64,000 nt of DNA, from contig NZ_JAQVCN010000024.1 of NCBI RefSeq assembly GCF_028689785.1, positions 1 through 64,000 of the forward strand. Reading direction: 5' to 3'. The position numbers and the translations under genes were made by a program. The DNA is from Zoogloea sp. GTDB taxonomy: Bacteria; Pseudomonadota; Gammaproteobacteria; Burkholderiales; Rhodocyclaceae. The notes below the pieces were generated by a model that saw nothing but the letters and a program-made list of their open reading frames with translations, had not been told where the DNA came from and did no database searches. Below are positions 4,995-21,299 of this stretch, piece by piece (position 1 is the first letter of the stretch; every line of letters starts with the position of its first letter).

Positions 4995-5590
4995 AACAGC
5001 CCCTGACGATTCGCTTCGTGCCAAACAAAAGGCGATTTCTTTCTTAGGTAGTCGGCTGGCAATCCGTGTTCGAGATAGTCTTGATACCAGCGCGCACGCA
5101 GCTCTCTGCATTGCGGATCGTCAAGCCCGAGCCGCCCAATGGTTTCTTCAACCAGTCGCATAGACACAGCATCTAAATCCGGATTCGGGTAGATGTGGCC
5201 AGTCGAAAGCTGCAAGCGGAACAGGTCAGGCGCGAGAAAAAACGGGTCCAGTACGTCGCTGTATTCACGTTTGCGACTGTTCATTGTTGAGCACGCCAAT
5301 CGGTAGTTGCTCCACTCATAGGCCAATCCCGCATGAGTGGATTTGGCAATAAAGTGATCCACGCTCCCACCACCCATCACACGCTCGAAAAAGACGCCCA
5401 GGTAGGCGCAAACCCCGCTATACGCTTGGTGCAGGTCTGTCAGACAGGCGCGCCAATAGGGCTCAATCTCCGCTTTGGGCGGCAAAGGTTGATTTAACGG
5501 AAACCCCTTTTTGTTGAGGTGGGCCAAGCCCTTCTGACGAACCTCGGCATCGAAAGCAGCGGGTTCCGGCTGAGCCGCCACCGGAATCAT
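4991..5590 (-). CDS. HNH-family nuclease, PtuB/McrA-like, lacking the usual zinc CxxC
   Basis: This is a 199-aa protein with one HNH (beta-beta-alpha-metal) core at about residues 60-107: CAYLGVFFER, then SVDHFIAKS (D78, H79), then YEWSNYRLACSTMNSRKREY (N95, N104). Family members pair this core with CxxC knuckles that bind structural zinc. Here the first is CAYL and the second CSTMN, so the zinc knuckles are absent while the catalytic D/H/N/N frame remains. I chose the ATG at 5590, which overlaps the stop of the upstream ATPase as ATGA. An AAA ATPase followed by an HNH protein is the layout of Septu (PtuA-PtuB) and related ATPase-nuclease defence pairs. The function as a DNA or RNA nuclease is inferred from family and position. 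Confidence 0.8.
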   Translation of the reverse strand: MIPVAAQPEPAAFDAEVRQKGLAHLNKKGFPLNQPLPPKAEIEPYWRACLTDLHQAYSGVCAYLGVFFERVMGGGSVDHFIAKSTHAGLAYEWSNYRLACSTMNSRKREYSDVLDPFFLAPDLFRLQLSTGHIYPNPDLDAVSMRLVEETIGRLGLDDPQCRELRARWYQDYLEHGLPADYLRKKSPFVWHEANRQGLL

Positions 5591-6882
5591 CGCAGCCACC
5601 CTTGCTTTTCGCCCACGTAGCGCCAACGAATCCAGAAGGGGTCGGTGTCTCCCAGCAGGCCACGCAACTTTGCATCCAGCGCTTTCGCTTTGGTGTGGTC
5701 GATCTCTTGCTCGGAGAGAATCTCAGCAGCCTCCTGCAACACCAGCTCTGACTCCAGAGAGCGGGCGCTGCCAAGGTCAAAGGCTTCACTCATCAACCAG
5801 CGAGAAGCATCACCCAGCCGAACAAAGGGCCGTTTCTTGAACTCCACGGTCGGCTGTTGACCGCTTTGAGCTGCAACCAAATCAAGATCAAACCAGGCAT
5901 CCATGGCCTCATCAAAGCGCGGCTCAACAGATGCCATCACCAGTGGGGAGTGGGTCACGGCAAGCAGTTGAACCTCTGCGCCAGCGATCAAGGACTGCGT
6001 CACGTTCAAGAGCGCAGGGATGATTCGGCGCTGCCACTTGGGATGCAGGTGTGACTCCACCTCATCGATCAAAAAGACGACCTGGTTGGTCGTCGGCTCT
6101 GAGAGCAACTTGGCCGCCTTCTGGTGTTCTTCCCAACACCAAACCAAGAAATAAGCCAGGGCAATCACGCGACGCATGCCGGACGACGCATGCACCACCG
6201 CTACATCCTTGCCATAGGGCATGCGGACGGTTGGCATGTCGCGTACGTCGTCCAGGCTGATCCGCGTCAGCTCTCCCGGCGATAGCTTCTCCGCGGTGTC
6301 AGGAGACAAGACATCAAGCACAGCACACAGGTTTTTGAATGCGGTGCCGTTCTCCTTCTGCCAACTCGCCCAATCCCGGATCAACCCATTGCAAAGCCAA
6401 TTGCCTTCCGTACCTGGCAAGCCATCCCAAACCTCTGTCGGGCTGAAAACATAGGCAGACGGACGATCCTGAACGTCCACTCCCCCTTGCGTGCGCCAGT
6501 AATTGCGAGCCGGGTCCCAAACGGCAAAGCCGCCATCTGCCATGGCATAAATGACCAGGCCGGGGTTTGCCGGACGGCCCTGCTGGCCCGTCCAAGCTTC
6601 GTCGCGTCGGGCGTAGCTGCTGACATATTCAACAGACCGTGATTTGCCGGTGAATGAGAAGTCAATCTTGGCGTCCCCATCTCCTCGGGGGAGCGCCTTC
6701 TTCCCCGAAGTCAGTTTGGGGTTGACCTCGGCAGGCCACTTTCTGGTCATGGACCACCAGGCGATATCCAGCAAAAAGCTTTTGCCCAGCCCGTTGTCGC
6801 CCGTGATCAGGTTCAGGCGCTTTCCAAACTCCAACTCGGTGTCGGCTGGGCCAAGGTTTGTCAGTTTCAAGTGCTTCAGCAT
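5587..6882 (-). CDS. AAA15/OLD-like ATPase, PtuA-type partner of the HNH nuclease
   Basis: This is a single-domain ABC/SMC-type ATPase (431 aa). It begins MLKHLKLTNLGP, and Walker A is GDNGLGKS (residues 28-35). An ABC-signature-like SSGMRRVIALAY precedes Walker B VVFLIDEVESHLHP, which is followed by the H-loop VTHSP. This order is typical of AAA15/AAA21 proteins found in Septu, Gabija-like, retron-associated and other defence pairs. There is no Toprim domain, so it is not a full OLD nuclease. The ATG at 6882 has an AGGGG-type ribosome-binding site. A longer in-frame start at 7029 would run across the preceding remnant ORF and the DUF932 stop and looks non-coding. It is coupled upstream to the 47-codon remnant and downstream to the HNH gene. 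It probably senses infection and licenses the nuclease (inference). Confidence 0.85.
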   Translation of the reverse strand: MLKHLKLTNLGPADTELEFGKRLNLITGDNGLGKSFLLDIAWWSMTRKWPAEVNPKLTSGKKALPRGDGDAKIDFSFTGKSRSVEYVSSYARRDEAWTGQQGRPANPGLVIYAMADGGFAVWDPARNYWRTQGGVDVQDRPSAYVFSPTEVWDGLPGTEGNWLCNGLIRDWASWQKENGTAFKNLCAVLDVLSPDTAEKLSPGELTRISLDDVRDMPTVRMPYGKDVAVVHASSGMRRVIALAYFLVWCWEEHQKAAKLLSEPTTNQVVFLIDEVESHLHPKWQRRIIPALLNVTQSLIAGAEVQLLAVTHSPLVMASVEPRFDEAMDAWFDLDLVAAQSGQQPTVEFKKRPFVRLGDASRWLMSEAFDLGSARSLESELVLQEAAEILSEQEIDHTKAKALDAKLRGLLGDTDPFWIRWRYVGEKQGWLR

Positions 6883-7019
6883 GGCTTTTCCCCTGTCAGG
6901 GCAAATAGTCTCATTACTTGGTCCACCAGCTTGATCGAACCGAGGAAGTACCCTGAGCCGTTCTCTCCGGCGCCATCGAAGAGCTGCGAGACCGGGTAGT
7001 TGTTGACCGACTTGATCAT
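6876..7019 (-). pseudogene. 47-codon remnant of a DUF262 (GmrSD-like) gene, still translationally coupled
   Basis: A short frame starts at ATG 7019, overlapping the DUF932 stop as ATGA, and ends at TGA 6876-6878 inside the start region of the ATPase gene. It encodes 47 residues. The first 15 (MIKSVNNYPVSQLFD) look like the N terminus of DUF262 proteins, and residues 21-29 (GSGYFLGSI) look like a later conserved DUF262 segment. The usual IPxYQR motif between them is missing. The simplest reading is an internal deletion joining two LFD-like sites, plus loss of the whole C-terminal part. What remains keeps the overlapping start and stop and so could still serve to couple translation of the ATPase. 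The DUF262 assignment comes from remembered motifs only. Confidence 0.5.
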
Positions 7020-7984
7020 AGGGACTCAATCACCTCCGCCGTTTGGCGGTAGTCGGCCAGGTAGCGGTCAAATGAGAAGTCGGGGTTCTTGATGGCCGAA
7101 ATGAAGTCGTCCATCCAACTGCCCGCCTTCTGCTGTAGGCCATGCATGCTGGCCTCCGGTGCTATCACGCCCGCGGGGCGCGACGCGTAGTCCGTCAGCA
7201 CGTTCAGCGCGGCATAGCCGTGCGGCCCCATCTCCGTGAAGTAAGCCTTGGTCAGGCTCTTAGCCTGGCCGCGCAAAGCCAGAAGGTCGTCTACGCGCCT
7301 TGGCTTTTCAACCACGTCTTTGGGCGCCCTGATGTCGAAGGCGCGGCACAGCAGGGCCAGCATCTCCTTCTCGGGCACGTGGTAGCGCTTGAGTTGGTGC
7401 AGCTTCTCGGTTAGGGCGGTTTCCAGCTTGCGGATGTCGCCGATGTTCTCGACGAAACGGTCCACTCGATCCATACCGCGCCGGGTGTGGGCGTAGCTAA
7501 ACTCGATGCTCTTGCTGCCAAAGATGATGCCGTTCAAACAGATCCAGCGGCAAAAGCCCAGCTCGAAGCGCAGCAGCCGGGTGCGGTTGTAGCTGTTGCT
7601 GATGCGCAGAAACGCCGTCCACTTGTCCCTCTCCCACGGCGAGAAGTCGGCGGTCTTGTGGATCAAGTCGATGTGGCAGAACGACCGGGTCTTAGGCATG
7701 GTGATGTTCAAGCACGCCATGTCGCCGATCTGCGTGGTGTGGAACACCTTCTTCATCACCTCGGCCGCCATGTCGTAGGCAGCCTTGTTCGTCACCAGCT
7801 CGTAGTCGTCGGTCACCACCGCAAAGGGGTTCTGTCGCTCCACATCCACCACCGCGAAGTGGCGCTTGAGCTGCTGATACTTCTCGAGGCCGTCTGCAGT
7901 GGGCATGAACAGGGGGAGCATCTCTACTGGGAAGAATGCCTCGGCAGGTTCTCTGGCCGTCCATGCTCGGGGGGCGGTCGTCAT
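7016..7984 (-). CDS. DUF932 (phage/plasmid-like TIGR03299-type) protein
   Basis: This is a 322-aa protein with the DUF932 core, seen in RISNSYNRTRLLRFELGF followed by CRWICLNGIIFG. Upstream is a conserved-looking block FAVVTDDYELVTNKAAYDMA. DUF932 proteins are common on phages, plasmids and islands, and their biochemical role is not established. The start lies 4 nt after the pglX stop, and the stop overlaps the next small ORF as ATGA. The gene is therefore the first of the extra block inserted between pglX and pglZ. No membrane segment or nuclease motif was seen. A role in DNA recognition or counter-defence avoidance would be speculation. Confidence 0.8.
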   Translation of the reverse strand: MTTAPRAWTAREPAEAFFPVEMLPLFMPTADGLEKYQQLKRHFAVVDVERQNPFAVVTDDYELVTNKAAYDMAAEVMKKVFHTTQIGDMACLNITMPKTRSFCHIDLIHKTADFSPWERDKWTAFLRISNSYNRTRLLRFELGFCRWICLNGIIFGSKSIEFSYAHTRRGMDRVDRFVENIGDIRKLETALTEKLHQLKRYHVPEKEMLALLCRAFDIRAPKDVVEKPRRVDDLLALRGQAKSLTKAYFTEMGPHGYAALNVLTDYASRPAGVIAPEASMHGLQQKAGSWMDDFISAIKNPDFSFDRYLADYRQTAEVIESL

Positions 7985-7988
7985 GGTC

Positions 7989-10900
7989 TTATGCCTTTCC
8001 CTGTTTGGCGCGAGCTGCGCACTTCTCGGCCAGCGTCAGGTGGTGATCGTTGATACGGTCGCCCACCTTGCCGCCGTATTGCAGGCCCAGCTCGTACCAA
8101 GGGGCCGACGGTACATCGCTGCCACGGTCTTTCCCCCACAGCTTGAGCTCTTTTGTTTTCGGATCACGGCTGGTTACTCGGTCTCGGAGCACGCCAGCAT
8201 CCTTTACCTTGATGTCCTCAACCAAAACAAAGGGGCGAATGTTGAGGCGAACCCCATCATTCAGATCGGGGTTCCAGCCGATGGGTTGTTCCTCGATGGG
8301 CTTCCAGCGCACGAAGATGTCGTAGGGCGCCTCACCTGCCAGGATCAACTCCAGGCGCTTCTTCAGCGCTTCGGCAGCGGCCAGCTTTTCCTGGGCGCCG
8401 TCGATGCCGTTGTCGGCATCGCGCTTCTGGCGACCAATCCAATCTTGTCCTAGATAGTTGTAAGTTAGCTTCTCAAGTGTCTTGTAGTTGAGCTTGTGAT
8501 AGTTCAACAGGGCAGAAAAACCATCGCTCAGGCCGTCCCATATGTGCCATACGAAGGGCCGGTTGCCGAAAAGCTTTCCATCACAGTGCTGTGTGAAGAA
8601 CTTGTCCCGCAGCCAGGTTTCGAGCGACTTGCCGCCGTGACCGACCGCTGTCAGCAGTTGTGCCAGGACATCATTGCTCCAATCAGTCCCGTAGGCATCG
8701 GCCAGCAGGTTTAATAGGCGATCGCTCGCAGATGCCTCTTGGCCTACTGGAGGAATGCAGACAATGCCGTCCTTGTCTGCATGGGTTGCTAGAGCCCTGC
8801 TGCTGGCGATCAATCTATAGGCATCGTCTGAAAGGTCCATCTTGCCGTCTGCCTCGGCGGGCCATTTGTAGCCAACTAGGCGAGCAACTGCGACCTGAAG
8901 TGGATCACTGGAAGTCGATGGGTGACCGTGGAAGATCCACTGAGTTGGGTTGTTTGAATAGGGTTTGGGAAGCCCGTCTGGGTAGCGCTCCTTTGCTACT
9001 CGCTCCCAATGTTCAACATCGAACGGGACCTTCACAAAGGTCTTGTTTGTTACCTTCAGTGCAGCATCAATCTGTCTGACGTTGACAAGGAATTCTGGAC
9101 TCGTGACATAACAAAACAGTGCGGCTTGATGATTTGGGTTTGAAGGAATGACCGCAGCTGCATTTTCGTCAAACATCTCTCCCTGATACAGGGTAGAAGG
9201 GAGGCCACGCATTTGTGTGATAGAGACCCCTTTTTTGGACCATGCCTTTGCACCTTTTACGTAACAGGATGGCTGTTGAACCATCGCGCCGTCACCGTTT
9301 TCCCACAACAGAACCTGGGATCGCCCTCCGAATTCCTCGCTGCGCTCTACCGAGCCTTGGTATGGAACCCATCCGTCAGAGATTCGTGGGAGCTCCCAGT
9401 GCTCGTGAATAAATCGGTTCAAGTCGCCGGTGGAAAGGCCTTTGAAGCCGTCCGCATAGCGGGAGAGCAAGATCGCGCCGTGAGCCTCTTCAAACGCAAC
9501 TCGAGCGTCTGGGTTATCCAATTGCCCCCTCTGTCTAACGTCGACCACCTCACCTGACCGCAACAACGTAGCCTTTTCCGCTGGCCGTTTAAGTGCGCTG
9601 GCATCTATGCCTCGAAGTCGAAAGTCATCGGTTGCTGAAGCGTGAGTCTGCGTCAGCAGGATGATGAATGCGCCAGCCGCCTGCGGGCTATCGAAGCCAC
9701 CTTCACCCAACCGGGCCAGGAGATTCCATTGCACACGTTTAAGCAGTGACTCGCGCTGTGCTTTGTAGGCAGTTAGAAAAAGCCAGTTCTGCGGCATAAC
9801 GATTTGCACTACGCCGTGGCCTTGATCGTATGCAAGCTCCAAGCAGCGTTCCAAGAAAACATTGGCTATGTCGCTTTTTGCCTCCGCGTAGTGGGCGGCG
9901 CAATACTGCTTTAAAGCATCACTTTGCCGACCTCTGGCCAGGTAAGGCACATTGGTTATGACGAGGTGGTAGCGTCTTTCTAACAGGCGCGCCGCTTCAA
10001 GTAATCCCTGCGCGCTTAGGGCTAATTCCCAGCGATCGTCATCTTCATTTATCAGACTGGCCGGGCGTTCAGTGGCTAGCGCTTTGCCTAGCAAGCTCGT
10101 CAATGTCGCGTAGCTGGACATTGCCAAGTCGTTCTTCAAGCTACGTGCCGGGTCCAGCAGGCTGCCAAGCAGTGGCGCATCGGAAAAGCTGGTATGCAAT
10201 TGGCGCAACTCTTGGCGCATGTATTCAACATTTGGAGCGTCGTCTGGAACTAGCGCTTCCCAGTCCTGCGCCTTGGCCGCGACCTTGAGGCCACAGCACG
10301 CGATATTGGGTGCCGGAATCTCTCGCACACCGAGCGGTTTGCCAGATGCATCTGGAAAGCGCCATGCCTCCAGGGCCACTGCGAACACCGCGATCTCCAC
10401 GCAGCGTGGGTCAAGCTCCAGCCCATGAATGTTCTCAGCAAGGACGCGACTCACCGCCTCCTTGGCGCTCAAGCCTTCCGCCGCCATGCGCATTGGCACC
10501 AGCATCAGGAAGGCGGCCACCAGGAAGTGACCCGAACCGCAACACGGGTCAAGCAGATTGAAGTCGGCCAGGGAGTCGGGCCAGCCCTCGAACTTGCCTG
10601 CGGCCGGGGTGCCGTCTTCCAGGGTGCGGAAGTAGTCGAGGTTGACGGGGCATGGCTTGCCCGGATGCCGGGTGGCCCACCAGGCGCCGAGCGAGTTGTG
10701 AAGCAGGAAGGCCACCATGTACGGCTCCGTGAAGAGCTGGGTGACGGCGGGCAACTCGTCGGCACCGATCTTCACCTCCGACTTGTTGATGCGGTCCTTG
10801 TTGTCGGCTTGCCAGAACTGGTACACCCAGCCCAGGCTGTCGCTGGCCTTGAACACCGCATCGGGCAAGTCCTTGAGCAGACGTTCCAGCTCGCTCTGGT

Positions 10901-11390
10901 GCTCGGGCGCAAAGTTCAGCTCGAATACCGGCGAGCCCGGCTTGAATACCTGCGGCAGCATGCGGGCGGCCAACTTGCCGGCCAGCTCCCAGCCGCTCTT
11001 GGCGCCTTCGTCGGGGGCCAGCTCATCGCACTCTTCGATGGTGACGGCCACGCCGTCGTACATCAGCAGGTTGTTGTCGGCCAGGAAGCGGGCGAACAGC
11101 ATACGGTGCCAGTGCTGGTAGGCCACTTCTTGCACCAGGTGCTGCACCTCTTGCTTGCCGTAAGTCGGGTTGGTGCTCTTCGAGTCGCGGGCGTCACCAA
11201 GCTGCTTGCCGTGGGTGCGCAGGCGGTTGCGAAGCGCCTTCTCGTCATCGCTCAGAAAGGCCTCAGGCTTGTCGTGGCCAACGCCCAGTTGGTCCACTGC
11301 CGCGTGCGCGGCAGCGTCAGCGACCGTGCGGGCTGCTTTGACGGTCTTTTCCAACGCGCTGCGCAGGTCTTTGTCGAGTGCTTGCATCAT
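7989..11390 (-). CDS. pglX: PglX, BREX adenine-specific DNA methyltransferase
   Basis: PglX (1133 aa) is the BREX methyltransferase that marks host DNA at a short non-palindromic site on adenine N6. It is also required for phage exclusion. The AdoMet motif I is LLDPCCGSGHFLVAAF (DPCCGSG at residues 281-287). The acidic loop follows as GLELDPRCVEIA. Catalytic motif IV reads VITNVPYLARG (NVPY, 480-483) where most N6-adenine enzymes have NPPY. A long C-terminal region after about residue 600 should carry target recognition. Two adjacent ATGs open the frame (11390 and 11387), and I kept the first. It follows brxC by 13 nt. The full length argues for an active gene. The motif IV substitution is the only oddity. 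Confidence 0.95.
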   Translation of the reverse strand: MMQALDKDLRSALEKTVKAARTVADAAAHAAVDQLGVGHDKPEAFLSDDEKALRNRLRTHGKQLGDARDSKSTNPTYGKQEVQHLVQEVAYQHWHRMLFARFLADNNLLMYDGVAVTIEECDELAPDEGAKSGWELAGKLAARMLPQVFKPGSPVFELNFAPEHQSELERLLKDLPDAVFKASDSLGWVYQFWQADNKDRINKSEVKIGADELPAVTQLFTEPYMVAFLLHNSLGAWWATRHPGKPCPVNLDYFRTLEDGTPAAGKFEGWPDSLADFNLLDPCCGSGHFLVAAFLMLVPMRMAAEGLSAKEAVSRVLAENIHGLELDPRCVEIAVFAVALEAWRFPDASGKPLGVREIPAPNIACCGLKVAAKAQDWEALVPDDAPNVEYMRQELRQLHTSFSDAPLLGSLLDPARSLKNDLAMSSYATLTSLLGKALATERPASLINEDDDRWELALSAQGLLEAARLLERRYHLVITNVPYLARGRQSDALKQYCAAHYAEAKSDIANVFLERCLELAYDQGHGVVQIVMPQNWLFLTAYKAQRESLLKRVQWNLLARLGEGGFDSPQAAGAFIILLTQTHASATDDFRLRGIDASALKRPAEKATLLRSGEVVDVRQRGQLDNPDARVAFEEAHGAILLSRYADGFKGLSTGDLNRFIHEHWELPRISDGWVPYQGSVERSEEFGGRSQVLLWENGDGAMVQQPSCYVKGAKAWSKKGVSITQMRGLPSTLYQGEMFDENAAAVIPSNPNHQAALFCYVTSPEFLVNVRQIDAALKVTNKTFVKVPFDVEHWERVAKERYPDGLPKPYSNNPTQWIFHGHPSTSSDPLQVAVARLVGYKWPAEADGKMDLSDDAYRLIASSRALATHADKDGIVCIPPVGQEASASDRLLNLLADAYGTDWSNDVLAQLLTAVGHGGKSLETWLRDKFFTQHCDGKLFGNRPFVWHIWDGLSDGFSALLNYHKLNYKTLEKLTYNYLGQDWIGRQKRDADNGIDGAQEKLAAAEALKKRLELILAGEAPYDIFVRWKPIEEQPIGWNPDLNDGVRLNIRPFVLVEDIKVKDAGVLRDRVTSRDPKTKELKLWGKDRGSDVPSAPWYELGLQYGGKVGDRINDHHLTLAEKCAARAKQGKA

Positions 11391-11403: not shown

Positions 11404-14400
11404 TCAGTGAAGGATGACCGGACCACTTTTCAGGGCCTGTGCGATGGTCTGTTTGGCGTCCAGCAGCCAGGCCTCGATGTCCTCAATGGTCTTGATAGTG
11501 CGGCTGGGCAGCTTGACGAACTGCGCCTTGGGCTCCATCAACTCGGCGGCTGCCACCAGCACAGCGTCAAAGCGTGAGTCGATGGCGGCCACGCGGTCGG
11601 CAAACGACGAAAGCGACAGCCGATCAACCGTTGCCAGCACCTCGTCGGTGTTGGCCACTTGCACCTTGGGTGCATCGGTCAAGGTGAGCTTTTGGGCGGC
11701 GAGCAGGGTGTTGCGTTGTTCGGGTTCCAACTGCTGCCAGTTGGTGTCGCCCTCCAGGCGCGCCATGCCGTTCTTGTGGCGGGTCTGGTAATCGGTATGC
11801 AGGCGGTTCAGTTCGTCGCGCAGCAACTGCGTTAGGCTGGCCACCAGGGGGGTGACAGGGTCGGGCTCCTCCAGCAGTTGGCGTTGCTGCTCAAGGTGTG
11901 TGACCTGCGCCACCAAGACTTCGGCACCCGACAAGCCGTTGGCCTGGGCCAGCAGACGCTTAAGCGTGTTCCAGGCGGGCAGGCGCTTGGCGATACGCTC
12001 GGCCAGATCCGTCCAGGTGTCGATCGCGGTGCTGAGTTCGTCGCGCTGGTTGTACAGAGCCAGCAGCTGCTCGTTGCCTGCCGTGAGGCGGATCTCTTCC
12101 AACCCCTTCATGTCCGGGCGTGCAGGAAGCGGGGCATCACCCCCAGCGCGCTCTGCCAACCTCTGCGCGTTGACCAGAAACTGCGGCACGTAGGCCTGCT
12201 CTTCGCCTGGCTTAGGGGTGGGACCGATCTTTTGCAGTACCTTGCGGATCTGGATGCGCTGCGCCGCCGAAACGGTTGCCGACTCGACCTTAAACATGGT
12301 CTTGCCGATGGCCTTGCGTTCCAGGTCCTTCGGGTCGATGGTCTGACCCTTATCATCCAGGGCGCGGATCAGCCCGGCCACCAGCAGCACCTGCAAGCCC
12401 CCGTCCACCGCGTCCCCCGGCCAGCCGTAGGTGGCGCCTTCGAAGTGCTTGCGGACGTCGATGCCCTTCTTGCCGCCGGCAATGAAGGCCAGGATAGCTT
12501 TGCACACCAGGTTCTTGGCGGGCTCGCCGTCGTCGCCCACACTCTTGAGTGCGTCCGGAGCCCCTTTCTGCGCCTTCTCGTAAACCTTGGGCCAACCGGT
12601 GTGGTCAGCGATGTGGAACTGCGGGTAGAGCCGCTGCAGTGCGTTGGTGGCTGCTTCCAATGCCATCTCCTGCAGGTCGGTGCCCAAGATCTCGTTGCCG
12701 CCGCCTTGGAAGACTCGGGCGCCCGAGAAGGCCTCTTGCAGCAGCTCGCGGATCTTGCCCTCAGCGGTCTGCTTGGTGGTCTCCATGGCCGAGCGGGCTT
12801 CGGTGCCCTCGGCGGTGTTGGGCACGCCGCGCTTATCCAGCGTGGCACTCGCCGCCTTGAAGTCGATCAAATAGTGGCGCAGATCGTCAGCCGAGCGCTT
12901 GGGGATGAACACGAACACGGTAGGTGACTGATTGCCCGCTTGGCGAGCGTCGGCACGTACCGAGCTCTCGTCGATGCTCCAGCCATCACGCACCCAGACG
13001 CAGACCTTCTCACTGGCGTCGCCCGGCAACTGCGCATCGAACACCGGGAAGATGTCGCGCGTGACCTTGGACGTGCCTTGCGTCAGCGACAGCTTGCGCA
13101 CGATCTCGCCGAAGCGGCGGCGGATGCGGTCGTCGCGCTCTGCGTCCACGCGGTGAGCCTCGTTGGCCAGGCTATTGCGCTGACTGAGGAACTCGTCGTT
13201 CCAGGCGGCGCTTTCCTCGGTCTGGATGCGGTACTCGTCACCCACCTTCATCAGCAGTTCGCACTTTTCCAGGATGCCGGGCAACTTGCTGCGTAAGGCG
13301 CTGGATCCCTGTGTCAGGTCTTCAACCAACAGGTCGGCCAGCGTGTCGAGCGTGGCGTGGATGCCAATCTCGTTGTTGCTGCTGGCGAGTTTGTTGACCA
13401 GGAACACTAGGCCGCAGGCTCGCGCCATCAGGCGTTGGTCCTCGGTCCCCTTGATCCAGACCATGGTCCGCTCATGAACCTTGCGCGGGAGGATGCGCGA
13501 CTGGAGCAGCTTGTCTGCCGCATCGAAGTAAAGGTAGTCCGCCGGCACGACGCTGCCGACCGGAGCGTCAACATTCGTCTGGATAACCTTGTGGATCATG
13601 GAGAGCTGGTTGCGCAACTGGCTGTCGGTGCCCGTCTGATCGAGCACGCGCAGGGTGTTCTCCCAAAAACGACGGCGCACCGGCAGGATCGGGTAGTCCT
13701 GTGGGAAGAACTGGATGTCATCAGGACGGTGGCCGATGGTGGTGCCGGCCAGGTGGCGCGAGATTTCGCCCAGGTTGGTTTGCATCACCTTTTCGACTGG
13801 TGCTTTGGCTTCGGGCTTCTTGGCCAGGATGACCTGGCGGATCACTGCATCGACGTCGGCGTCGGACAACTCAACGCGAACGGTGAAGCGGCCTTCGAGT
13901 TTCTTGAGGTTGGAGGTGCCGGTGACAGCGGTTTGGCCGGTGCCGATGAACAACATCTTGGCGCCGATGTTCTTGCAGCAGGCTTCGACCACCTCCTGCA
14001 CATCGATGGAGCGCTGGCTGTCCTCGCCGATGTACTGCTGCACCTCGTCCAGCACCACTAGGGTGAGCGGGAACTTGCCATCGCGGGTCAGTGCCTGGCG
14101 AATGCTTTTGAGCATGTCGCCGCTGGAGACATCCTGCACATAGGGGTACAGGTTATTCAGGGTCTCGACGCAGGACGCTGGCGACGTGAACAGGTTGGGC
14201 TTGGCCTTGGCCAGGGCTTCGTGCAGGCCCTCGGCCACGTAGAAGTTGTCGAGCTCTTCGTTCCAGTCGAAGCCGCTCTTCTCAACATGGCCCCGCACTG
14301 CGTCATAGATGCCTTCGTGCTGAAGCCACATGACAAAGCGTGCGACCGGGTACTGCTCGGGCAGGCCAACGGACTTGAACAGAATGCCCAGCAGGGCCAT

Positions 14401-14844
14401 GCGGACAGACTTGTCCCGCGAGCTGGAGCCCAGCGTGCCAGACGCCGCGTGCAGGCCGCCATGGCGTTTGGCCTGGGTGGTGAGCGCCTTCAACTGATCG
14501 CTCACGCTTTGGGGCAAGGTGGCAATGCCGCGTGCGGTGGCGCCGTCGTCGAATTTGCTGTCGACCCAAAGCGCCCGCAGCATCTTGACCAGGTGCGATT
14601 TGCCCGAGCCGTAGAAGCCGCTGACCCACGCGGCGGGCTGCTCGGCTTGCTCGATGTTCTTCAGGTAGACGTCGAGGATGTGCTCCAGGCCCTTTTCGTA
14701 CTGGCCATCGCAAACGAAGGTTTCGAGCTCGTACCGCAGCACGGACAGCGCCTGGTTGGTCTTCTCGTCGTTGACGCTGGCCACGCCCTCATTGACCAGC
14801 TTTCGGGTCGACGGATCCTTTTGGTAGATGTCACGATTGAGCAT
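11404..14844 (-). CDS. brxC: BrxC, BREX large P-loop ATPase
   Basis: This is the 1146-aa core ATPase of BREX. Walker A is VSGFYGSGKSHLVKML (GSGKS near residues 79-83). Walker B is LVVLDEVQQYIGE, followed by an arginine- and threonine-rich sensor region around LFIGTGQTAV. The rest is helical with a leucine-rich C-terminal part. BrxC/PglY proteins are essential for phage restriction and methylation in the BREX systems studied. Their mechanism is incompletely known, and they are thought to assemble with BrxB, PglX and PglZ. The gene lies 13 nt after brxB and 13 nt before pglX. Length and motif order match type 1 BrxC. Confidence 0.95.
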   Translation of the reverse strand: MLNRDIYQKDPSTRKLVNEGVASVNDEKTNQALSVLRYELETFVCDGQYEKGLEHILDVYLKNIEQAEQPAAWVSGFYGSGKSHLVKMLRALWVDSKFDDGATARGIATLPQSVSDQLKALTTQAKRHGGLHAASGTLGSSSRDKSVRMALLGILFKSVGLPEQYPVARFVMWLQHEGIYDAVRGHVEKSGFDWNEELDNFYVAEGLHEALAKAKPNLFTSPASCVETLNNLYPYVQDVSSGDMLKSIRQALTRDGKFPLTLVVLDEVQQYIGEDSQRSIDVQEVVEACCKNIGAKMLFIGTGQTAVTGTSNLKKLEGRFTVRVELSDADVDAVIRQVILAKKPEAKAPVEKVMQTNLGEISRHLAGTTIGHRPDDIQFFPQDYPILPVRRRFWENTLRVLDQTGTDSQLRNQLSMIHKVIQTNVDAPVGSVVPADYLYFDAADKLLQSRILPRKVHERTMVWIKGTEDQRLMARACGLVFLVNKLASSNNEIGIHATLDTLADLLVEDLTQGSSALRSKLPGILEKCELLMKVGDEYRIQTEESAAWNDEFLSQRNSLANEAHRVDAERDDRIRRRFGEIVRKLSLTQGTSKVTRDIFPVFDAQLPGDASEKVCVWVRDGWSIDESSVRADARQAGNQSPTVFVFIPKRSADDLRHYLIDFKAASATLDKRGVPNTAEGTEARSAMETTKQTAEGKIRELLQEAFSGARVFQGGGNEILGTDLQEMALEAATNALQRLYPQFHIADHTGWPKVYEKAQKGAPDALKSVGDDGEPAKNLVCKAILAFIAGGKKGIDVRKHFEGATYGWPGDAVDGGLQVLLVAGLIRALDDKGQTIDPKDLERKAIGKTMFKVESATVSAAQRIQIRKVLQKIGPTPKPGEEQAYVPQFLVNAQRLAERAGGDAPLPARPDMKGLEEIRLTAGNEQLLALYNQRDELSTAIDTWTDLAERIAKRLPAWNTLKRLLAQANGLSGAEVLVAQVTHLEQQRQLLEEPDPVTPLVASLTQLLRDELNRLHTDYQTRHKNGMARLEGDTNWQQLEPEQRNTLLAAQKLTLTDAPKVQVANTDEVLATVDRLSLSSFADRVAAIDSRFDAVLVAAAELMEPKAQFVKLPSRTIKTIEDIEAWLLDAKQTIAQALKSGPVILH

Positions 14845-14857
14845 GTTTTCCCCTTAA

Positions 14858-15409
14858 TCAGAATTCTTTGTCTGCGGTGATCGGCACGGCGAGGTAGTTC
14901 CAGCCGTCATACCCGTCAAGCAAGCGGTAGTTGTTGTCTTCGTAGCTACCGGGAAAGAACACCAGCAGACGGCCCTTCACCTTGGGCGCGAGCTTGTCCA
15001 CGACTTCCTTGACCTTCAAGAAGCCGAACAGAGAGCCCACGCCCTGCAGTGCCACAACAAACTCCTCGCTGACGTTCTCGTCTTGCAGGAAGGTCTCAAA
15101 CTCGGCTTCGATGTAGCTGAGGTACTTGGGCAGCAGCGTGGACAGGAGGTTGGGCTTTTGGAAGTAGCTCTTGGCATACCGTTGGGACGCCAGCCAGTTG
15201 GGGAACGAATCCGTCAAATCGAACAACGCCCAGTCATGACCTGCCGCACGGGTGGCGATCTCGAACTCGTCGACTTTGGCCCGTAGCCGCAGCTCTTCGG
15301 ACTCGTGATAGACGCAGAAAATGACGCGCTGGGCAGCGGCGGCGTCATCGCGCCAAGGCACAGCCACGTACTTGCTGTAGGACTGGGTCAATCGCTTAAT
15401 TCTGCTCAC
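14858..15409 (-). CDS. brxB: BrxB (DUF1788)
   Basis: This is a 183-aa protein of the BrxB/DUF1788 family, a small BREX core component. It begins MSRIKRLTQSYSKYV and contains the family-like stretch LLVFFPGSYEDNNYRLLDGYDGWNYLAVPI near the C terminus, where YRLLDGYDGWNY is characteristic. It overlaps the end of brxA by 14 bp and is followed by brxC after 13 nt, so its expression is tied to both. No catalytic motif is visible. A structural or bridging role between BrxC and PglZ/PglX is what has been proposed for the family. Confidence 0.92.
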   Translation of the reverse strand: MSRIKRLTQSYSKYVAVPWRDDAAAAQRVIFCVYHESEELRLRAKVDEFEIATRAAGHDWALFDLTDSFPNWLASQRYAKSYFQKPNLLSTLLPKYLSYIEAEFETFLQDENVSEEFVVALQGVGSLFGFLKVKEVVDKLAPKVKGRLLVFFPGSYEDNNYRLLDGYDGWNYLAVPITADKEF

Positions 15410-16196
15410 GGAGCCACTCCATTTCCTGCGCAGTGATCAAGTTCGGGAAAAGCACTTCGACCACCTGGCCGACGCGTTTGAGCGAGATCCAGCCCCGGCG
15501 CGAGGCGTCCTCGGCCAACTCGATCGTCTTTTCAAATGAACAGTCGAGCATCCGGGTGAAGTCACTCTTCAGCAGCGACTCGCCGCGCAGACCACTGACG
15601 TAGCCCAGAAGCAGTGCCAACGAGACCGTGCCTGGCGTCGCCACAGCACTGGCCCGCACCTTCCGGACGCGGCCAGCCAGGTGACCCGCCTGAGTCCAGG
15701 ACGAATTGATGTTCTGCGCGGTGGACTTGAGCGTGGCCTTGCTGAAGCGCCCAGGCTCTAGCGCATCGATGAACTCTTCCATCGCCTCACGGGTGACGGT
15801 GGCCCCTTCCTGGAAGCCCAAGGCAAAGGGAGCCGTGGCCCGAAGCAGGGGGTCACGTGCGTAGGCGCACAGCGCTGCCAACAATGGCTGTCCATCCACA
15901 TCGCGTTGCCAGAAGAAACGCAGGGCACGGAACACCAACACGCTAGCGTCGAGCGCGTAGAGGTCGGCCAGGTGCCGGAAGGTCAGCGTCCGCGTCTTGC
16001 CCGAGCGCTTGCCAAGGCAATTGGCAGTCTGAATGGCATCCAGGTAGTCGGCCTTGGCTGCGTTGGCAGCGTCCACAAAGGACAGCAGCGCGCGCAGCTC
16101 GGCGAGCATCATCGTCCGGGCGGTATGAACCCCGCCGCGCTCATAACTGAACCCGAGGCGCTCCAGCTTGTTGTTGTGCATGTTCTCTGCATTCAC
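15396..16196 (-). CDS. brxA: BrxA (DUF1819)
   Basis: This is a 266-aa BrxA family protein. BrxA homologues have a fold related to the RNA-binding antitermination protein NusB and bind DNA in vitro. The N terminus (KLERLGFSYERGGVHTARTMM) has the GFSYERGGVHTARTM-type signature typical of DUF1819, and the C-terminal half carries a helical region ending in FPNLITAQEMEWL. The ATG at 16196 was kept. A second Met five codons in (MHNNKL) is possible. There is a 40-nt gap after the dprA-like gene, one of the longest in the operon, and this may mark the junction between the added head module and the canonical brxABC block. Confidence 0.92.
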   Translation of the reverse strand: MNAENMHNNKLERLGFSYERGGVHTARTMMLAELRALLSFVDAANAAKADYLDAIQTANCLGKRSGKTRTLTFRHLADLYALDASVLVFRALRFFWQRDVDGQPLLAALCAYARDPLLRATAPFALGFQEGATVTREAMEEFIDALEPGRFSKATLKSTAQNINSSWTQAGHLAGRVRKVRASAVATPGTVSLALLLGYVSGLRGESLLKSDFTRMLDCSFEKTIELAEDASRRGWISLKRVGQVVEVLFPNLITAQEMEWLREQN

Positions 16197-16236
16197 GTTG
16201 GGGTAAGTCCTGGTGTTCAGTCGGCATCATCATGGG

Positions 16237-17640
16237 TTACTCGAAAAGGCTGCTCTGCTTGACGATGTAACCCGCTGGCTTCTTCTGCTTCTCGATCACG
16301 CCTTCATTGATAAGCCGCTGCAACCACGCCTTGGCTTGAGCAGTGGTCACGTCCAGGGCTTCCGCGACTTCGGCGTCTTTCATCGGGGCCTTCAGCAGCA
16401 GTTGAATCACGCCTCGGACGGTCGCAAACAGCGTGTCCGCTGGTGTTGAAGCCGCTGTCTCCATCGGGCTGGCTGCTTCGGGGGCGGCTTCAGGTGCCGG
16501 GGTAGCCGAAGCAGCTAGTTCCGGCGTTGGCTCAACCAGTTCATCGATGGGTGCAGCGGCGGGTGGCCGCACTGGCTCGCTCGGCGCTTCGATCGCCGGT
16601 GTTGTACCCGGAGTCGAAGGTGTCGTGGGTGCAACGCCCGACGGTCTGTCTTCGGAAAACAGTGCAAGGCCTGACTGCGGTGACGGCACCGGCGTGGGCG
16701 CAGCAACCTCGAACACAGCTTCGAACGTATCGGCGTCTTGCGGGTTCGGCCAGGGGAGCGCTCCCTTGCTGCGCAGGGCATCGAGTCCGGGAGACGAAGC
16801 TACCGTGGATCGAACGTACACAGACACGAACTTGAGCTTGTCCAGCTGCTCGACGGCGCCCGTCCAGGTGCCGCCCTTGTTCAGATCGGAGCTGACAACC
16901 AGGGATGCATCGGCCAGCGCGTAGATCAGCTTGTTGCGCTGCATTGCGTTGCCGACGTTGAACCCCACATTCGGGTCGTAGGGCGAAATCAGCACCAGTT
17001 GGCCATCGAGCAGCAGATTGCGGTGCTCGCGGTTCATGGTCGTCTTCTCCAGACTGTCCGCAAGCACGCCGCTGACCTTGCCGCCCGCGTCAAGCGCACC
17101 GCGCATGGCGGCCTGGTCGATGCCCTTGGCACCACCGGATACAAGCGTTCTTCCAGCCCGAGCCGCCAACCGGCCCACCGCCATCGTGTAGTCGATCAAC
17201 GAGTCGTCCACATGGCGAGAACCGACTACGGCGAGGCCGCCCGAATCCAGCAAGGCCATGTCGCCGCAGCCGTAGATGACCGCCGGGGCGTCTTCGCGCA
17301 GGCGGGCCTTCAGACGGCGGGGGTACTCTGCATCCGCGCGGCTGACCACCCAGATGGCGCGCGCCTGCCAACGTTCGATGACTTGGCTGAGGAGGAAGCC
17401 ACGCCCTAGCAAGCGCTGCAGACGAGCTTCATCAATCACAGGATGGCAGGCCCGCAGGAGGTCTGCCGCATCTGGTGACACGAGGTCCGCAGGCTGGCGT
17501 TGTATCTCCCACAGGTGACGCGCGAGGCGCTTGTATTCGCCGGGCGACAGGAGCTCCGATGACGATGTACTGCGCCCAGCGATCAGCGGCGCCGTCAGCA
17601 GCAAGATCGCCTGGGTGTTGGGGGACAGCGCGGGCGTCAT
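16237..17640 (-). CDS. DprA/Smf-like SLOG protein with C-terminal winged helix
   Basis: This is a 467-aa DprA-family protein. A SLOG/Rossmann domain is seen in [19 protein letters not shown], then [30 protein letters not shown], and [20 protein letters not shown], which follow the order of DprA nucleotide/ssDNA-binding motifs. A Pro/Ala-rich linker (roughly residues 290-390) leads to a winged-helix module ([36 protein letters not shown]) like the C-terminal domain of many DprA proteins. In competence DprA loads RecA on incoming ssDNA. SLOG proteins in defence loci are thought to bind nucleotides or ssDNA ends. I chose the ATG at 17640, overlapping the recQ-like stop as ATGA. This is not the housekeeping dprA by context, since it lies in a BREX operon and pairs with a helicase-PRTase fusion. 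Confidence 0.85.
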
Positions 17641-19730
17641 TCGTCGTGCCCCGTTTGAGAGAGCGCCATGGGGTAGACGTCGCCGCTTCCGCTCTTGCGC
17701 AGTAGCCACGCGGCCACGGTCAGCGTCCAGCGTGAGTCCACCATGTCATCGACCAGAATCACCGGCCCGTAGGGCACCGGCTGACCGTTGAGTGCCAGCG
17801 AGCCGTCGATGTTGCGCGCCTGCTGTGTGCTGTTTGCCATCGTTTTCTGTTCGGGCCTGGCGTCAGTTTTCGCGATGACCATATGAAACGGCAGACCCAG
17901 AGCCGCAGCCAAGCGCTTGGCAAAGTTGGGGACGAGATCGGGGTGCCGCAGCGAGGGCACGCACGTCACCCAGGTCGGTTTGGGCTGGGGGTTCCATTCG
18001 CGAATCATCTTCACGCACGCCCCAACCAGGTCGTCGGCAAACTTGCCGTCGTGGTATTTGCCTTGTCGGACCAGGCCCCCCCAACCAGCGTCACCCCATA
18101 TACACAGGGCTTTGCCGGGCTGCGCAATATGTTCATGTGCGATACCTCGTGGTCCCAATGGGGCAAGGAGGCCATACTTAGGCATGCCGCCCAACGGCCA
18201 CTGTTTGCGCGGTTGAATTGTTAAGCCAGTGCGCTGCAAGAATGCGGTCGCTTCATCAACCAATGCCTCGCCAACATGGGTCGGTAGTGGAGGAAGCATC
18301 GGGTCAGTGGCAGTTCCTGGATCGCCGTCGAGCGCCTCGACCAGGAAAGGCATGTGAGCACCAAATGGCAGACTGACGTAGTTCTCCATTTGTTGATGTT
18401 CGTCACGCCTCAAAGCAGTGAGTCGTTCTGCCCGCGTCCAGAATTCATCGCTCAACGTAGCGGCTGAGAGTTGCCACTTGCTGCCATCGAGGGCAATGGG
18501 AGACGAAGCCTCGAGGGAGAGAAGATCAAGCGTCTTTTCGATGCGAATCTTGCTCACATTGACTCGACTGAGAAGCTCTGGCATCGATAGCCCCTTTTCC
18601 TCGTCCTCGAGTGCCCCCAGAACACTGGCGACTTCCTCGCGGGTCGGGAACGCGCTTCGGATGAACCAGTCGGTGATGTTCGACTCTTCTTGACCGCTGA
18701 GCAGCACGCCGTAGGCGGACTCCAGCGCGCGCCCTGCGCGTCCCACTTGCTGGTAGTAGGCGACGACCGAGCCCGGCATCTGGTAGTGGATGACGAAGGC
18801 CAGATCGGGCTTGTCATAGCCCATGCCCAGCGCCGTCGTTGCGACGAGTGCCTTGACTTCGTTGTTGAGCAGCGCCTGCTCTAGAGCTTCCCTGCGGTCG
18901 CCAGCTTTGCCAGAGTAGGCCTCGACATTGAAGCCCTTGGTCTTGAGCCAGTCGGCAACTTGGTTAGCGTCTCGCACCGTCAGCGTATAGATGATGCCGT
19001 GGCCTTTCAGCGTTGCCAGCTGCTCTGCCAGCCAGGCAAGGCGCTCAGCCTGACTGGGTAAGCGGATCGTTTGCAGGGAAAGTGATGTCCGATTCAAGTC
19101 GCCTCGCGAGACGTCCAACTTCGGACCGAGCACGGTAGCAAGGTCCTCCATCACGCGATTGTTTGCCGTTGCCGTGGTAGCGAGCAGTCGCAGATTCGGC
19201 GGCAGTGTTTTGACGATCCGCTCCAGCAGGCGATAGTGAGGTCGGAAGTCATGTCCCCAGTCGGAGATGCAGTGCGCTTCGTCGATGACCAGCATCGAGA
19301 TCTGTGCCGCGATGCCGGCCAGTACCTGCGTGCGGAAGCGCTCGTTAGCCAGGCGCTCGGGCGAGATCAAAAGAATATCGATCTCGCCACGGGCAAGCTT
19401 GGCTTCTACCTGGGTCCAGCTGGAAAAATTGTCGGAGTTGAGCGTGGCGGCGCGAACACCCATGCGCTCTGCCGCGGCGATCTGGTTGCGCATCAGCGCC
19501 AGCAGCGGGGAAATCAGCAGCGCGGGACCGTTGCCGCTGTCGCGCAGCAGCTTCGTCGCGATGAAGTAGACGAAGCTCTTGCCCCATCCGGTCTTCTGAA
19601 CGACCAGCAGGCGGCCTCGCCCTTCGACGATGTGGCGAATCGCGCCTTCTTGGCCTCCACGGAAGGTTGCGTCGGCGCGTCCAGAGCCGATCCGGAGCAA
19701 CTCCAGCGCGCGTTGTGTGTTGTAGGTCAT
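17637..19730 (-). CDS. RecQ-like helicase fused to a ComF-like phosphoribosyltransferase domain
   Basis: This is a 697-aa fusion. The N-terminal half is a RecQ-type superfamily 2 helicase: motif I QKTGWGKS (47-52), DEAH box [16 protein letters not shown] (150-153), motif [12 protein letters not shown], and motif [14 protein letters not shown]. The RecQ zinc-binding cysteines and the HRDC domain are absent. The C-terminal 150 residues hold a type I phosphoribosyltransferase fold with the PRPP-loop signature [15 protein letters not shown], as in ComF/GntX proteins. Helicase plus ComF-like PRTase plus the coupled DprA gene mirrors the cytosolic competence set ComFA-ComFC-DprA. The start lies 1 nt after the brxR stop, so it is the first structural gene of the operon. 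It could unwind or process invading DNA ends. This is inference, as is any enzymatic role for the PRTase domain. Confidence 0.88.
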
Positions 19731-19731
19731 C

Positions 19732-20637
19732 TCATGGCTCTCCCTTGTTCTTTTCAGGAGAGCGGTAGCCCGGTGCCAACACGGCGTTCTTGACGCCGTA
19801 GAGCGCCAGCGGGTCCTTCAGCCACAGCCTGAACTCATGGTCACGAAGGCTATGGTCAGGCGAGCAGTCCACGCTCCACTTGCGCAGGATGTAGCCTGCT
19901 GTTGCCGCGCGCAGCTTCATGCGCAACGACCCGTCCTGCATCCCGTAGTCCATCGCAGTGATCTCCGGACGTGGCTGGTCCGGATGCGGAACAAGCTCAA
20001 GCTCCACGATGCGCGTCCACTGGATGTCCTGGTCGCTGAGTTCGTGCGCTTCGGGGATTTCTCCCTTCAGCACCCGGGGACGCCTGATCCGCGTGATCAC
20101 GAAGTCACGAAATTCCTGCGACTTCCGGTCGAAGGCCCGGACATGCCACCTCAGGCCGTTGTCGATCAGCGCAAACGGCACGACCTGGCGCTCGGCTTGG
20201 CCGTTGGATATAGAGTGGTACTCGATCGCCAGCGGGCACTCCTGGTGGATCGCCCGGGTCACGCTGGCCAGCACGTCCAGGTCCGGGTGAGTAAGCCGCG
20301 ATGGACTCTCGCAAGCCACCCAGGCCTTGAGCCGCATTGGCTCCCCGTCCCCGAAACCTTGGGTCAACCAGGACAGCACCCGTTCAGGGGGAAAGTCGAA
20401 AACCGCCTGGAAGTCCGGTCCGAGGACGTAGGTTTTGGCTTTGGAGTCGTAGTCGATGTTGCCCGGGGCCAGCTCTTTGTAGAGTGCCAGATCCCGGCTG
20501 GCCGCAGCCGACTGGATGCCAAAACGTGCGACCAGATCCTGGCGGCGGATCTCCCCGATGAAGCGCAAGCGCAACTCCACGAACGCGAGGCGGTCGCGCT
20601 GCGGCTGAGTGAGCTCTGCAAGCTGTTCGTTCAACAT
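19732..20637 (-). CDS. brxR: BrxR-like WYL-domain transcriptional regulator
   Basis: This is a 301-aa protein. An N-terminal winged helix (LAFVELRLRFIGEIRRQDLVARFGIQSAAASRDL) is followed by a WYL domain containing IEYHSISNG and RWHVRAFDRKSQEFRDF (WHV in place of WYL), then a C-terminal dimerisation-like part. This domain order matches BrxR, the repressor found at the 5' end of many BREX and other defence loci. The ATG at 20637 was chosen. A TTG nine codons upstream (20664) is an alternative. It is the first gene of the operon, so it probably autoregulates it by binding near the promoter at 20724-20753. The ligand of the WYL domain is unknown. Confidence 0.88.
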   Translation of the reverse strand: MLNEQLAELTQPQRDRLAFVELRLRFIGEIRRQDLVARFGIQSAAASRDLALYKELAPGNIDYDSKAKTYVLGPDFQAVFDFPPERVLSWLTQGFGDGEPMRLKAWVACESPSRLTHPDLDVLASVTRAIHQECPLAIEYHSISNGQAERQVVPFALIDNGLRWHVRAFDRKSQEFRDFVITRIRRPRVLKGEIPEAHELSDQDIQWTRIVELELVPHPDQPRPEITAMDYGMQDGSLRMKLRAATAGYILRKWSVDCSPDHSLRDHEFRLWLKDPLALYGVKNAVLAPGYRSPEKNKGEP

Positions 20638-20723
20638 CCTGAGGTTGCTCGTTCGAGTTAGCAAAGGCTTATGCGGATCATTTCAAAAGCATACGATCTG
20701 CACTATCGCGTGTCTACAAACGC

Positions 20724-20753
20724 GTTATAGTTTGTTGATCCGTCGCCTTACAA
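20724..20753 (-). promoter_or_regulatory. Putative sigma-70 promoter of the BREX operon
   Basis: On the minus strand a TTGTAA -35-like hexamer (20748-20753) and a TATAAC -10-like hexamer (20724-20729) are separated by 18 bp, about 85 bp before the brxR ATG. This is the best match in the AT-richer stretch upstream of brxR. No clear inverted repeat that would serve as a BrxR operator was identified beside it. Confidence 0.45.
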
Positions 20754-21299
20754 TAACTAATTTCTACGCCCTGAACTTCAAAGAAAGCGCAATTGGCATG
20801 TGCTTTCAGCGCCCAGCCCACCCGCGTCCACGAGAAAAGTTCTTGGGCCATGACCGATCTTTACGTTTGGGGCTGACGAAAGGAACTGCGACAGACTCGC
20901 CCGAACAGTGAGCGAATTGACGCGCCACCACCCGCAGTCTCATGAGTTTCTGACCGGAGGAGATGGCATCTAGGACATCTTTAAGCTGGCTTTTCTCCAC
21001 GGCATCGCACGCGGAGGCGGCGCGCTTTGCAGCAAGTAGCTTGGGGGTCGAGCCGTTCTGCGCCTGCGAGGGCCCCAGCGCGTCGAGCTTCAGGCAGCGG
21101 AGGGGTAACCTGCTGACTCATGAAGCCAGCCCCCAGAGCAGATCGACATGCTCTAGGTCATCGCGCGGAAGGCCATTGAGTTCGATGCCGATGTCCGTCG
21201 ATATCTACACGAGAGCAAAGCGAAGGCTCTCCCTGCGGCATCCAAGGCCTGGCCACTTGAGTTTCAAACAGCACTTCGCGTGCACCCGCCATCGCGCGT
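20754..21299. other. Non-coding or decayed DNA between brxR and the island end
   Basis: About 550 bp without a supported gene. GC is lower than in the flanking core sequence. Small frames occur on both strands, for example a 64-codon minus frame at 20806-21000 and a plus frame around 21170-21290 with coding-like phrases such as FDADVRRYLHESK, but none has a full domain or a good start. They look like relics of mobile-element genes. Confidence 0.4.

Follow-up and report, generated by a model that had tools for sequence, protein, structure and literature searches.

The analysed window, a 64,000-nucleotide stretch of Zoogloea sp. DNA (contig NZ_JAQVCN010000024.1), carries at 16237-19730 on the minus strand a gene pair that we assign to the PsyrTA/RqlHI toxin–antitoxin family. 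The pair lies between a WYL (BrxR-type) gene and brxA of a complete type 1 BREX (bacteriophage exclusion) operon, in which brxA, brxB, brxC, pglX, pglZ and brxL are all present by PADLOC (Table 1). The two open reading frames (ORFs) run from 19730 to 17637 (697 aa, ATG start) and from 17709 to 16237 (490 aa when read from a GTG). For the second, psyrA, the ATG at 17640 is the likelier start, which gives a protein of 467 aa; this ATG overlaps the psyrT stop codon as ATGA, an arrangement through which the two genes may be translationally coupled. The WYL gene, psyrT, psyrA and brxA all lie on the minus strand, with a spacing of 1 nt between the WYL gene and psyrT. A sequence-only reading had placed the pair behind the BREX regulator and 40 nt ahead of brxA, and both points hold: the WYL gene is upstream, and 40 nt (16197-16236) separate the psyrA stop from the brxA GTG downstream. 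The presence inside a BREX operon of a gene for a helicase–phosphoribosyltransferase (PRTase) next to a gene for a DprA-fold protein is confirmed as real, far beyond chance.

PsyrT matches the PADLOC profile of that name nearly end to end (E 4e-273; residues 1-696, profile positions 1-687 of 689). Its helicase part is recognised by Pfam DEAD (2.7e-23) and Helicase_C (2.5e-15) and scores above the cut-off of the NCBIfam RecQ family TIGR00614 (3.2e-68). Across 38 aligned homologues the Walker A motif T47-G-W-G-K51-S52 is invariant, as are D150, E151 and H153 of the DEAH box, with A152 nearly so. Because a Pfam scan of PsyrT gave no PRTase at E ≤ 0.001, this part was tested by fold. The AlphaFold model of residues 468-697, based on 38 sequences, has a predicted local distance difference test score (pLDDT) of 90.4, and its top Foldseek match is H. 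pylori ComF (7p0h; E 3.9e-5, TMq 0.48, root mean square deviation 11.5); further matches are adenine and hypoxanthine phosphoribosyltransferases (APRTs, HPRTs), PurF, phosphoribosyl pyrophosphate (PRPP) synthetases and ShosT (8zvd). The TM-scores are modest, at 0.33-0.48, and the 50 matches listed are PRTases, PRPP synthetases or proteins not named otherwise. In the PRPP-binding motif, which spans V657 to residue 669, D661, D662, S666 and W668 are invariant and D665 nearly so over the 38 rows, and a sequence profile of the domain aligns this motif with PRPP synthetases. The sequence-only reading had proposed a helicase fused to a ComF-like PRTase and had named the lack of a PRTase fold in the C terminus as a reason to abandon the idea; the fold was found and the fusion is borne out. 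The helicase, in contrast, belongs to the RecQ family and not to the type of the competence helicase ComFA. A CxxC motif near columns 490-500 of the PsyrT alignment is kept by many relatives and absent from the window's group.

PsyrA is likewise matched over nearly its whole profile (PADLOC, E 1.1e-138; positions 3-396 of 398), and Pfam DNA_processg_A is found in it at 1.1e-34. The best matches of its structure model are DprA (3uqz) and ShosA (8zva). The Rossmann domain carries a QRNK motif and has GSR and RN residues in common with DprA sequences; further on, the model shows a low-confidence linker and then the high-confidence helices and strands of a winged-helix-like domain. PsyrA stays under both curated DprA equivalog cut-offs, with 88.5 of 191.15 bits for TIGR00732 and 60.7 of 495 for NF008007. 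The earlier call of a DprA protein thus stands for the fold, on Pfam and the model, but not for DprA proper.

Because both profiles are matched at near full length, the pair is, by its sequence, a PsyrTA/RqlHI toxin–antitoxin system. It has the RecQ-like helicase with Walker A and DEAH box, the PRTase fold with its PRPP motif, and the overlapping downstream DprA-like gene. It resembles PsyrTA/RqlHI of P. syringae and extraintestinal pathogenic E. coli (ExPEC) in both proteins nearly end to end, in gene order and in the helicase and PRTase motifs, and the PsyrT of one P. syringae strain (L066) shares 74% identity with that of the window and falls with it into one starred six-row set of the PsyrT tree; unlike those systems, the window pair is headed by a BrxR-type WYL gene and stands ahead of brxA. 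RqlH is reported to be genotoxic via its PRTase domain, and RqlI, which has homology to DprA, to bind and counter RqlH (PMC4670107). By analogy, the window's own copy of PsyrT would be toxic. Its D665 corresponds by motif to D663 of RqlH; in the portion of the RqlHI report available, growth and SOS were not notably affected by the variants D663A and DIVD663EVME, and viable counts only modestly (PMC4670107).

Two related systems can be set beside this family. The toxin of ShosTA is a PRTase without a helicase. ShosTA, like the window pair, combines a PRTase toxin with a DprA-like antitoxin, and PsyrA matches ShosA at 2.8e-25, with 8zva and 8zvd among the fold matches; the window toxin, however, carries a RecQ-like helicase, which rules out ShosTA membership, and the ShosA match is far weaker than the PsyrA match. 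In natural transformation, a ComFA-type helicase is separate from ComFC. The sequence-only reading had seen in the two genes the cytosolic set of natural transformation, a competence-like module whose helicase, PRTase and DprA would recognise or process incoming single-stranded or broken DNA. A ComF-like PRTase fold, a DprA fold, a helicase in the set and the GSR and RN residues common to PsyrA and DprA sequences speak for this idea, whereas the best family matches are PsyrT and PsyrA, toxin–antitoxin proteins, the helicase is of the RecQ family and shares one polypeptide with the PRTase, and the DprA equivalog cut-offs are missed. The pair as a competence set is thereby ruled out, and we regard a competence-like role as extremely improbable. 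The analogy with comF and DprA was already drawn for RqlHI in 2015 by authors to whom transformation was not detectable, as far as the available text of their report goes (PMC4670107), so the idea comes down to a known analogy for a known family. PsyrA may bind single-stranded DNA as part of an antitoxin sensor.

Table 1. Features of the psyrTA–BREX locus in the window.
Feature	Position	Strand	Details
WYL (BrxR-type) regulator	19732..20637	-	ATG 20637; ORF extends to TTG 20664; Pfam WYL 4.1e-13
psyrT (rqlH)	17637..19730	-	RecQ-like helicase fused to PRTase; predicted toxin
Walker A motif of PsyrT	19575..19592	-	T47-G-W-G-K51-S52
DEAH box of PsyrT	19272..19283	-	D150-H153
C-terminal PRTase domain of PsyrT	17640..18293	-	~residues 480-697
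PRPP-binding motif of PsyrT	17724..17762	-	V657 to residue 669
ATGA overlap	17637..17640	-	psyrT stop/psyrA start
psyrA (rqlI)	16237..17640	-	DprA-like predicted antitoxin, 467 aa
DprA/SLOG Rossmann domain of PsyrA	16741..17343	-	~residues 100-300; Pfam 114-294 of the 490-aa reading
C-terminal winged-helix-like domain of PsyrA	16261..16443	-	~residues 400-460; Pfam FaeA 2.3e-4
Stretch inside psyrTA absent from G385	16357..19668		BLASTN blocks from both sides meet at L163:10734
brxA	15396..16196	-	PADLOC BrxA 3.3e-106
brxB	14858..15409	-	PADLOC BrxB 2e-81
brxC	11404..14844	-	PADLOC BrxC 1686.6 bits
pglX	7989..11390	-	PADLOC PglX 1639.4 bits
PtuA-like ATPase + PtuB-like HNH cargo between pglX and pglZ	4991..7029	-	
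pglZ (type B)	2646..5111	-	NF033450 3.6e-286
brxL	594..2642	-	PADLOC BrxL 1.5e-296

A natural deletion is seen in a congener (G385), which carries the same BREX (BrxC 93% and PglZ 98% identical) and in which the search of 23 same-genus genomes gave no PsyrT match. Between its WYL gene, which was retained, and brxA lies a scar in which roughly 62 nt of the psyrT start and 120 to 135 nt of the psyrA end survive, mutually out of frame. Because both gene ends remain, loss in G385 accounts for the scar better than gain in the window would; that toxin and antitoxin were lost together is as expected for such a pair. The same genome bears on whether PsyrTA could be a true BREX component, that is, a subunit pair needed for methylation or exclusion, as its operon position between the WYL gene and brxA would allow. 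Against this, G385 keeps all six core frames open without the pair, which rules out a BREX core subunit, and neither the BREX of another genome (G202, BrxC 63%) nor a second BREX of the window's own genome has PsyrT in the stretches fetched, so that we consider such a role highly unlikely.

Several other differences were noted in the G385 island. PglX is only 75% identical between the two strains (window 7989-11390 against L163:15700-19050), compared with 92-98% for the other core proteins, as if target specificity had been exchanged, and the pglX-pglZ gap of G385 holds an extra GmrSD-like gene. In the window, this gap (4991-7984) contains a DUF932 protein (Pfam 1e-10) beside the PtuA/PtuB-like pair, whose matches (PtuA 2.9e-17, PtuB 2.5e-6; NCBIfam) are both under the curated cut-offs. 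Beside the BREX of G385 (L164:8356-16872) lie TniQ/TnsD-, TniB- and TnsA-type genes by Pfam, with a 728-aa frame without match among them and, after them, a frame that reads like a putative single-stranded DNA-binding protein (SSB); window positions 127-483 align to this region. Judged from these genes, the BREX island of G385 may be Tn7-like cargo.

Comparisons with other genomes delimit a cassette. In Solimonas sp. SE-A11 (L009), DNA similarity to the window begins at the WYL start and ends shortly after the psyrA stop (20641-16226, two blocks); behind the WYL-psyrT-psyrA genes come hsdM, hsdS and hsdR of a type I restriction operon. A second genome (G200, L141) has a WYL protein 96% and a PsyrT 86% identical to those of the window, with a divergent TmtA-like gene upstream, and a third (G070, L140) has only psyrT and psyrA in common with the window, without the WYL gene. 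These three comparisons define a three-gene WYL-psyrT-psyrA cassette and, within it, a two-gene psyrTA cassette. The earlier suggestion of a separable module is thus well supported, by the G385 scar, by the cassette ahead of type I restriction-modification (R-M) genes and by psyrTA without WYL elsewhere.

PsyrTA recurs at BREX. Seven loci, counting the window and G389, have it in four positions, always on the operon strand: before brxA in the window, between pglX and pglZ (L018, L080, L167, L174), after brxL (L022), and between brxC and pglX in a locus with a weaker BREX call (L190; BrxC and PglX matches of 124 and 224 bits). On a quick tree built from 97 PsyrT sequences (each of 560 aa or more, one of them a long row, L199; SH-aLRT support only), the BREX label changes six times, of which at least five changes are forced by starred branches. 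PsyrTA has come into BREX, and into other antiviral operons, repeatedly and independently. The PADLOC PsyrT profile alone is unusable for genome counts, since it matches 369/369 genomes and 14/14 controls, presumably via RecQ, and the PRTase part was used instead; of the 14 genomes that it matched, the surroundings of 11 besides the window were taken, leaving out G613 and G516. Among the 23 same-genus genomes, PsyrT occurs in three, each time at a BREX operon, and these three are among the five with a strong BrxC match (0/18 in the others).

Other host systems appear at a wider scale. The best-scoring 80 PsyrT loci in GTDB, which are not a random draw, include 19 with a system neighbour (12 type I R-M, four Hma and three BREX), and among loci with full 10-kb flanks the proportion is 10/27, none being detected in the other 17. 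RecQ-like control loci had such neighbours in 0/20 cases (Fisher p 0.011 against 19/80 and 0.0025 against 10/27); these controls, with matches of ~330 to 365 bits taken as RecQ, come from class-level genomes not matched to those of the 80 loci, two of them from G139 and one being 16 kb. Proteins from these loci served to build the R-M and Hma profiles, and proteins from these loci and the window the BREX profiles, so the counts are too low for divergent members and for other systems; gene calling relied on a simple ORF script, with which no PsyrT gene was called in L025 and L076. Smaller samples gave a system neighbour in 1/8 loci at class level (L119, a 3.2-kb contig, and L142 left out), in 1/11 at phylum level and in two of the three plasmid records inspected (H1, H3, H4) among 11 that cover at least 80% of PsyrT. 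None of 32 matching phage records covers at least 80% of the query, the matches listed covering the helicase part only. Where a BREX, type I R-M or Hma gene is near, PsyrTA is co-directional with it in 24/25 loci (binomial p 1.5e-6, the rows not being independent); the nearest system gene is less than 150 nt away in 16 of the 25, and 12 are flanked on both sides. In three of the Hma loci (L067, L074, L041) PsyrTA stands between HmaB and HmaC, and two of them (L067, L074) have a PtuA/PtuB-like pair ahead of HmaB.

E. coli has one near-identical pair in 53 of 5426 genomes. A query spanning the psyrA-hsdR junction was covered to at least 80% in 51 of the 53 genomes it matched, a set not necessarily the same as the first 53. 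In a more sensitive search, 21 of 40 evenly spaced rows from 1850 records represent a pair of ~67% DNA identity. The psyrT homologue of E. coli O157:H7 WS4202 (L223) is annotated in RefSeq as frameshifted with an internal stop, next to an intact dprA-like partner.

The WYL protein finds its best PDB match in 7qfz (E 1.3e-89), deposited as 'WYL domain-containing protein' and, we assume, BrxR of E. fergusonii; CapW (7tb6) is matched at 1.5e-29 and the named BrxR 7t8k at 4.8e-23. Its start at ATG 20637 is supported by the homologues in L009 and L141. On pEFER, the promoter upstream of brxR is reported to control brxA and to be repressed by BrxR (PMC9122601). Given the layout of the window, psyrTA and BREX are probably both controlled by the WYL regulator and its promoter. 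Short inverted repeats lie upstream of the WYL gene (20713-20738 and 20783-20807) and are not common to L163, L141 and L009, and an operator shared among the window and these three loci was not found. Nor was a homologue of the window WYL protein found in the seven BREX loci compared, some of which have little upstream sequence; an Acinetobacter plasmid has a WYL gene ahead of brxA.

From the family, folds, motifs, operon layout, portability, recurrent presence at BREX and natural loss described above, we infer, with somewhat better than even confidence, that PsyrTA is a genotoxic backup, an abortive module co-expressed with BREX; toxicity, the shared promoter, the trigger and the benefit to BREX are the inferred parts. 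In this scheme PsyrT would be a PRTase-carrying helicase, genotoxic when unrestrained, and the DprA-like PsyrA, made together with it through the ATGA overlap, would bind and restrain it. Together, the WYL gene and psyrTA would make up a portable cassette of three genes that heads the BREX operon at its 5' end, with one regulator and promoter for psyrTA and BREX. Phage DNA, damage or an anti-restriction protein might then disturb PsyrA or the helicase and release the PRTase, which would stop the cell after BREX has failed. Phage T7 has such an inhibitor of BREX, Ocr (PMC12839542).

Several observations weigh against the backup reading. G385 lost psyrTA yet kept its BREX with six open core frames, and the second BREX of the window's own genome (contig C105, L151), which has all six core genes and a BrxC 45% identical, has no PsyrTA in the stretch fetched. 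In 61 of the best 80 GTDB loci no BREX, type I R-M or Hma gene was detected nearby, and all three inspected E. coli loci of the ~67% kind and of helicase-only rows lie between gntU and yhgN-asd. The sequence-only reading had counted a prevalence outside defence loci against a defence role, and here the outcome is mixed, with these two results on one side and, on the other, the same-genus genomes, where every PsyrT is at BREX. Scans gave two promoter-like sites against 1.1 expected and five terminator-like sites against 5.3 expected, none above chance. The PRTase domain of RqlH alone is reported to be insufficient, and helicase-dead forms to be still harmful (PMC4670107), so the trigger may be more complex than proposed. 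PsyrTA of E. coli NILS69 gave no detectable protection in an expression test, as described in the part of the source available, in a strain with a growth defect (PMC12409345).

The simplest alternative is that PsyrTA is a passenger or addiction module. Carried only because mobile BREX and R-M operons put up with insertions, the same pair would stabilise the island or ride along without defensive cooperation. The neighbours of PsyrTA are unrelated to each other (type I R-M, Hma, a TmtA-like gene, or none detected), the pglX-pglZ gap takes other genes as well (PtuA/PtuB-like, GmrSD-like, MkoA), and the congener lost both genes at once while its BREX persisted. Co-directionality in 24 of 25 loci and distances within 150 nt in 16 are more than loose cargo needs, but insertions that disturb an operon would also be purged; the kept psyrA-hsdR junction of E. 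coli also speaks against a passenger, but may reflect only recent common descent. We consider this explanation less likely than not, though by no means remote. A wider extension of the backup idea would make PsyrTA a general guard of defence by methylation: a non-nuclease suicide switch based on a PRTase, inserted time and again into operons of BREX, type I R-M and Hma, and set free once the host system is inhibited or its DNA substrate becomes bound or damaged. Release of this kind, on behalf of restriction, is also attributed to PrrC. It is attributed to PARIS as well, according to the available part of a 2026 survey of BREX accessory genes (PMC12839542). We put the guard idea forward only tentatively and think it unlikely in this general form; if it were true, a single regulator would, through the WYL-psyrTA cassette, control both the guard and the system it protects.

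That BREX operons can carry backup effectors is generally accepted (PMC12839542). Like the auxiliary genes of that survey, PsyrTA is embedded in a BREX operon and can be read as a backup; the effectors described in its available part are nucleases, whereas PsyrTA is PRTase-based, and the terms RecQ, DprA, PRTase, phosphoribosyl, PsyrT, SLOG and ComF do not occur in its main text as available (PMC12839542). Another precedent is Acinetobacter BREX, for which the legend of a figure of BREX structures (Figure 2) names recQ and dprA genes; the accessible part of that source neither identifies them as PsyrTA nor suggests a function (PMC10117892). On a comparable Acinetobacter plasmid, the pglX-pglZ gap holds psyrT and psyrA. 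No description of PsyrTA as a recurrent BREX insert was found among the papers listed by literature searches, as judged by titles and the starts of abstracts.

PsyrTA itself is already known, and it is its arrangement with BREX that deserves a test. For the window pair, a toxin–antitoxin reading replaces the competence one. For the family, whose purpose is unclear, the loci reveal one kind of site, inside restriction-like operons, where it keeps landing. Two natural strains with one BREX, with and without psyrTA, make the backup question directly testable, and PsyrTA would add a PRTase-based candidate to the BREX backup effectors, which in the 2026 survey, so far as its text is available, are nucleases (PMC12839542).

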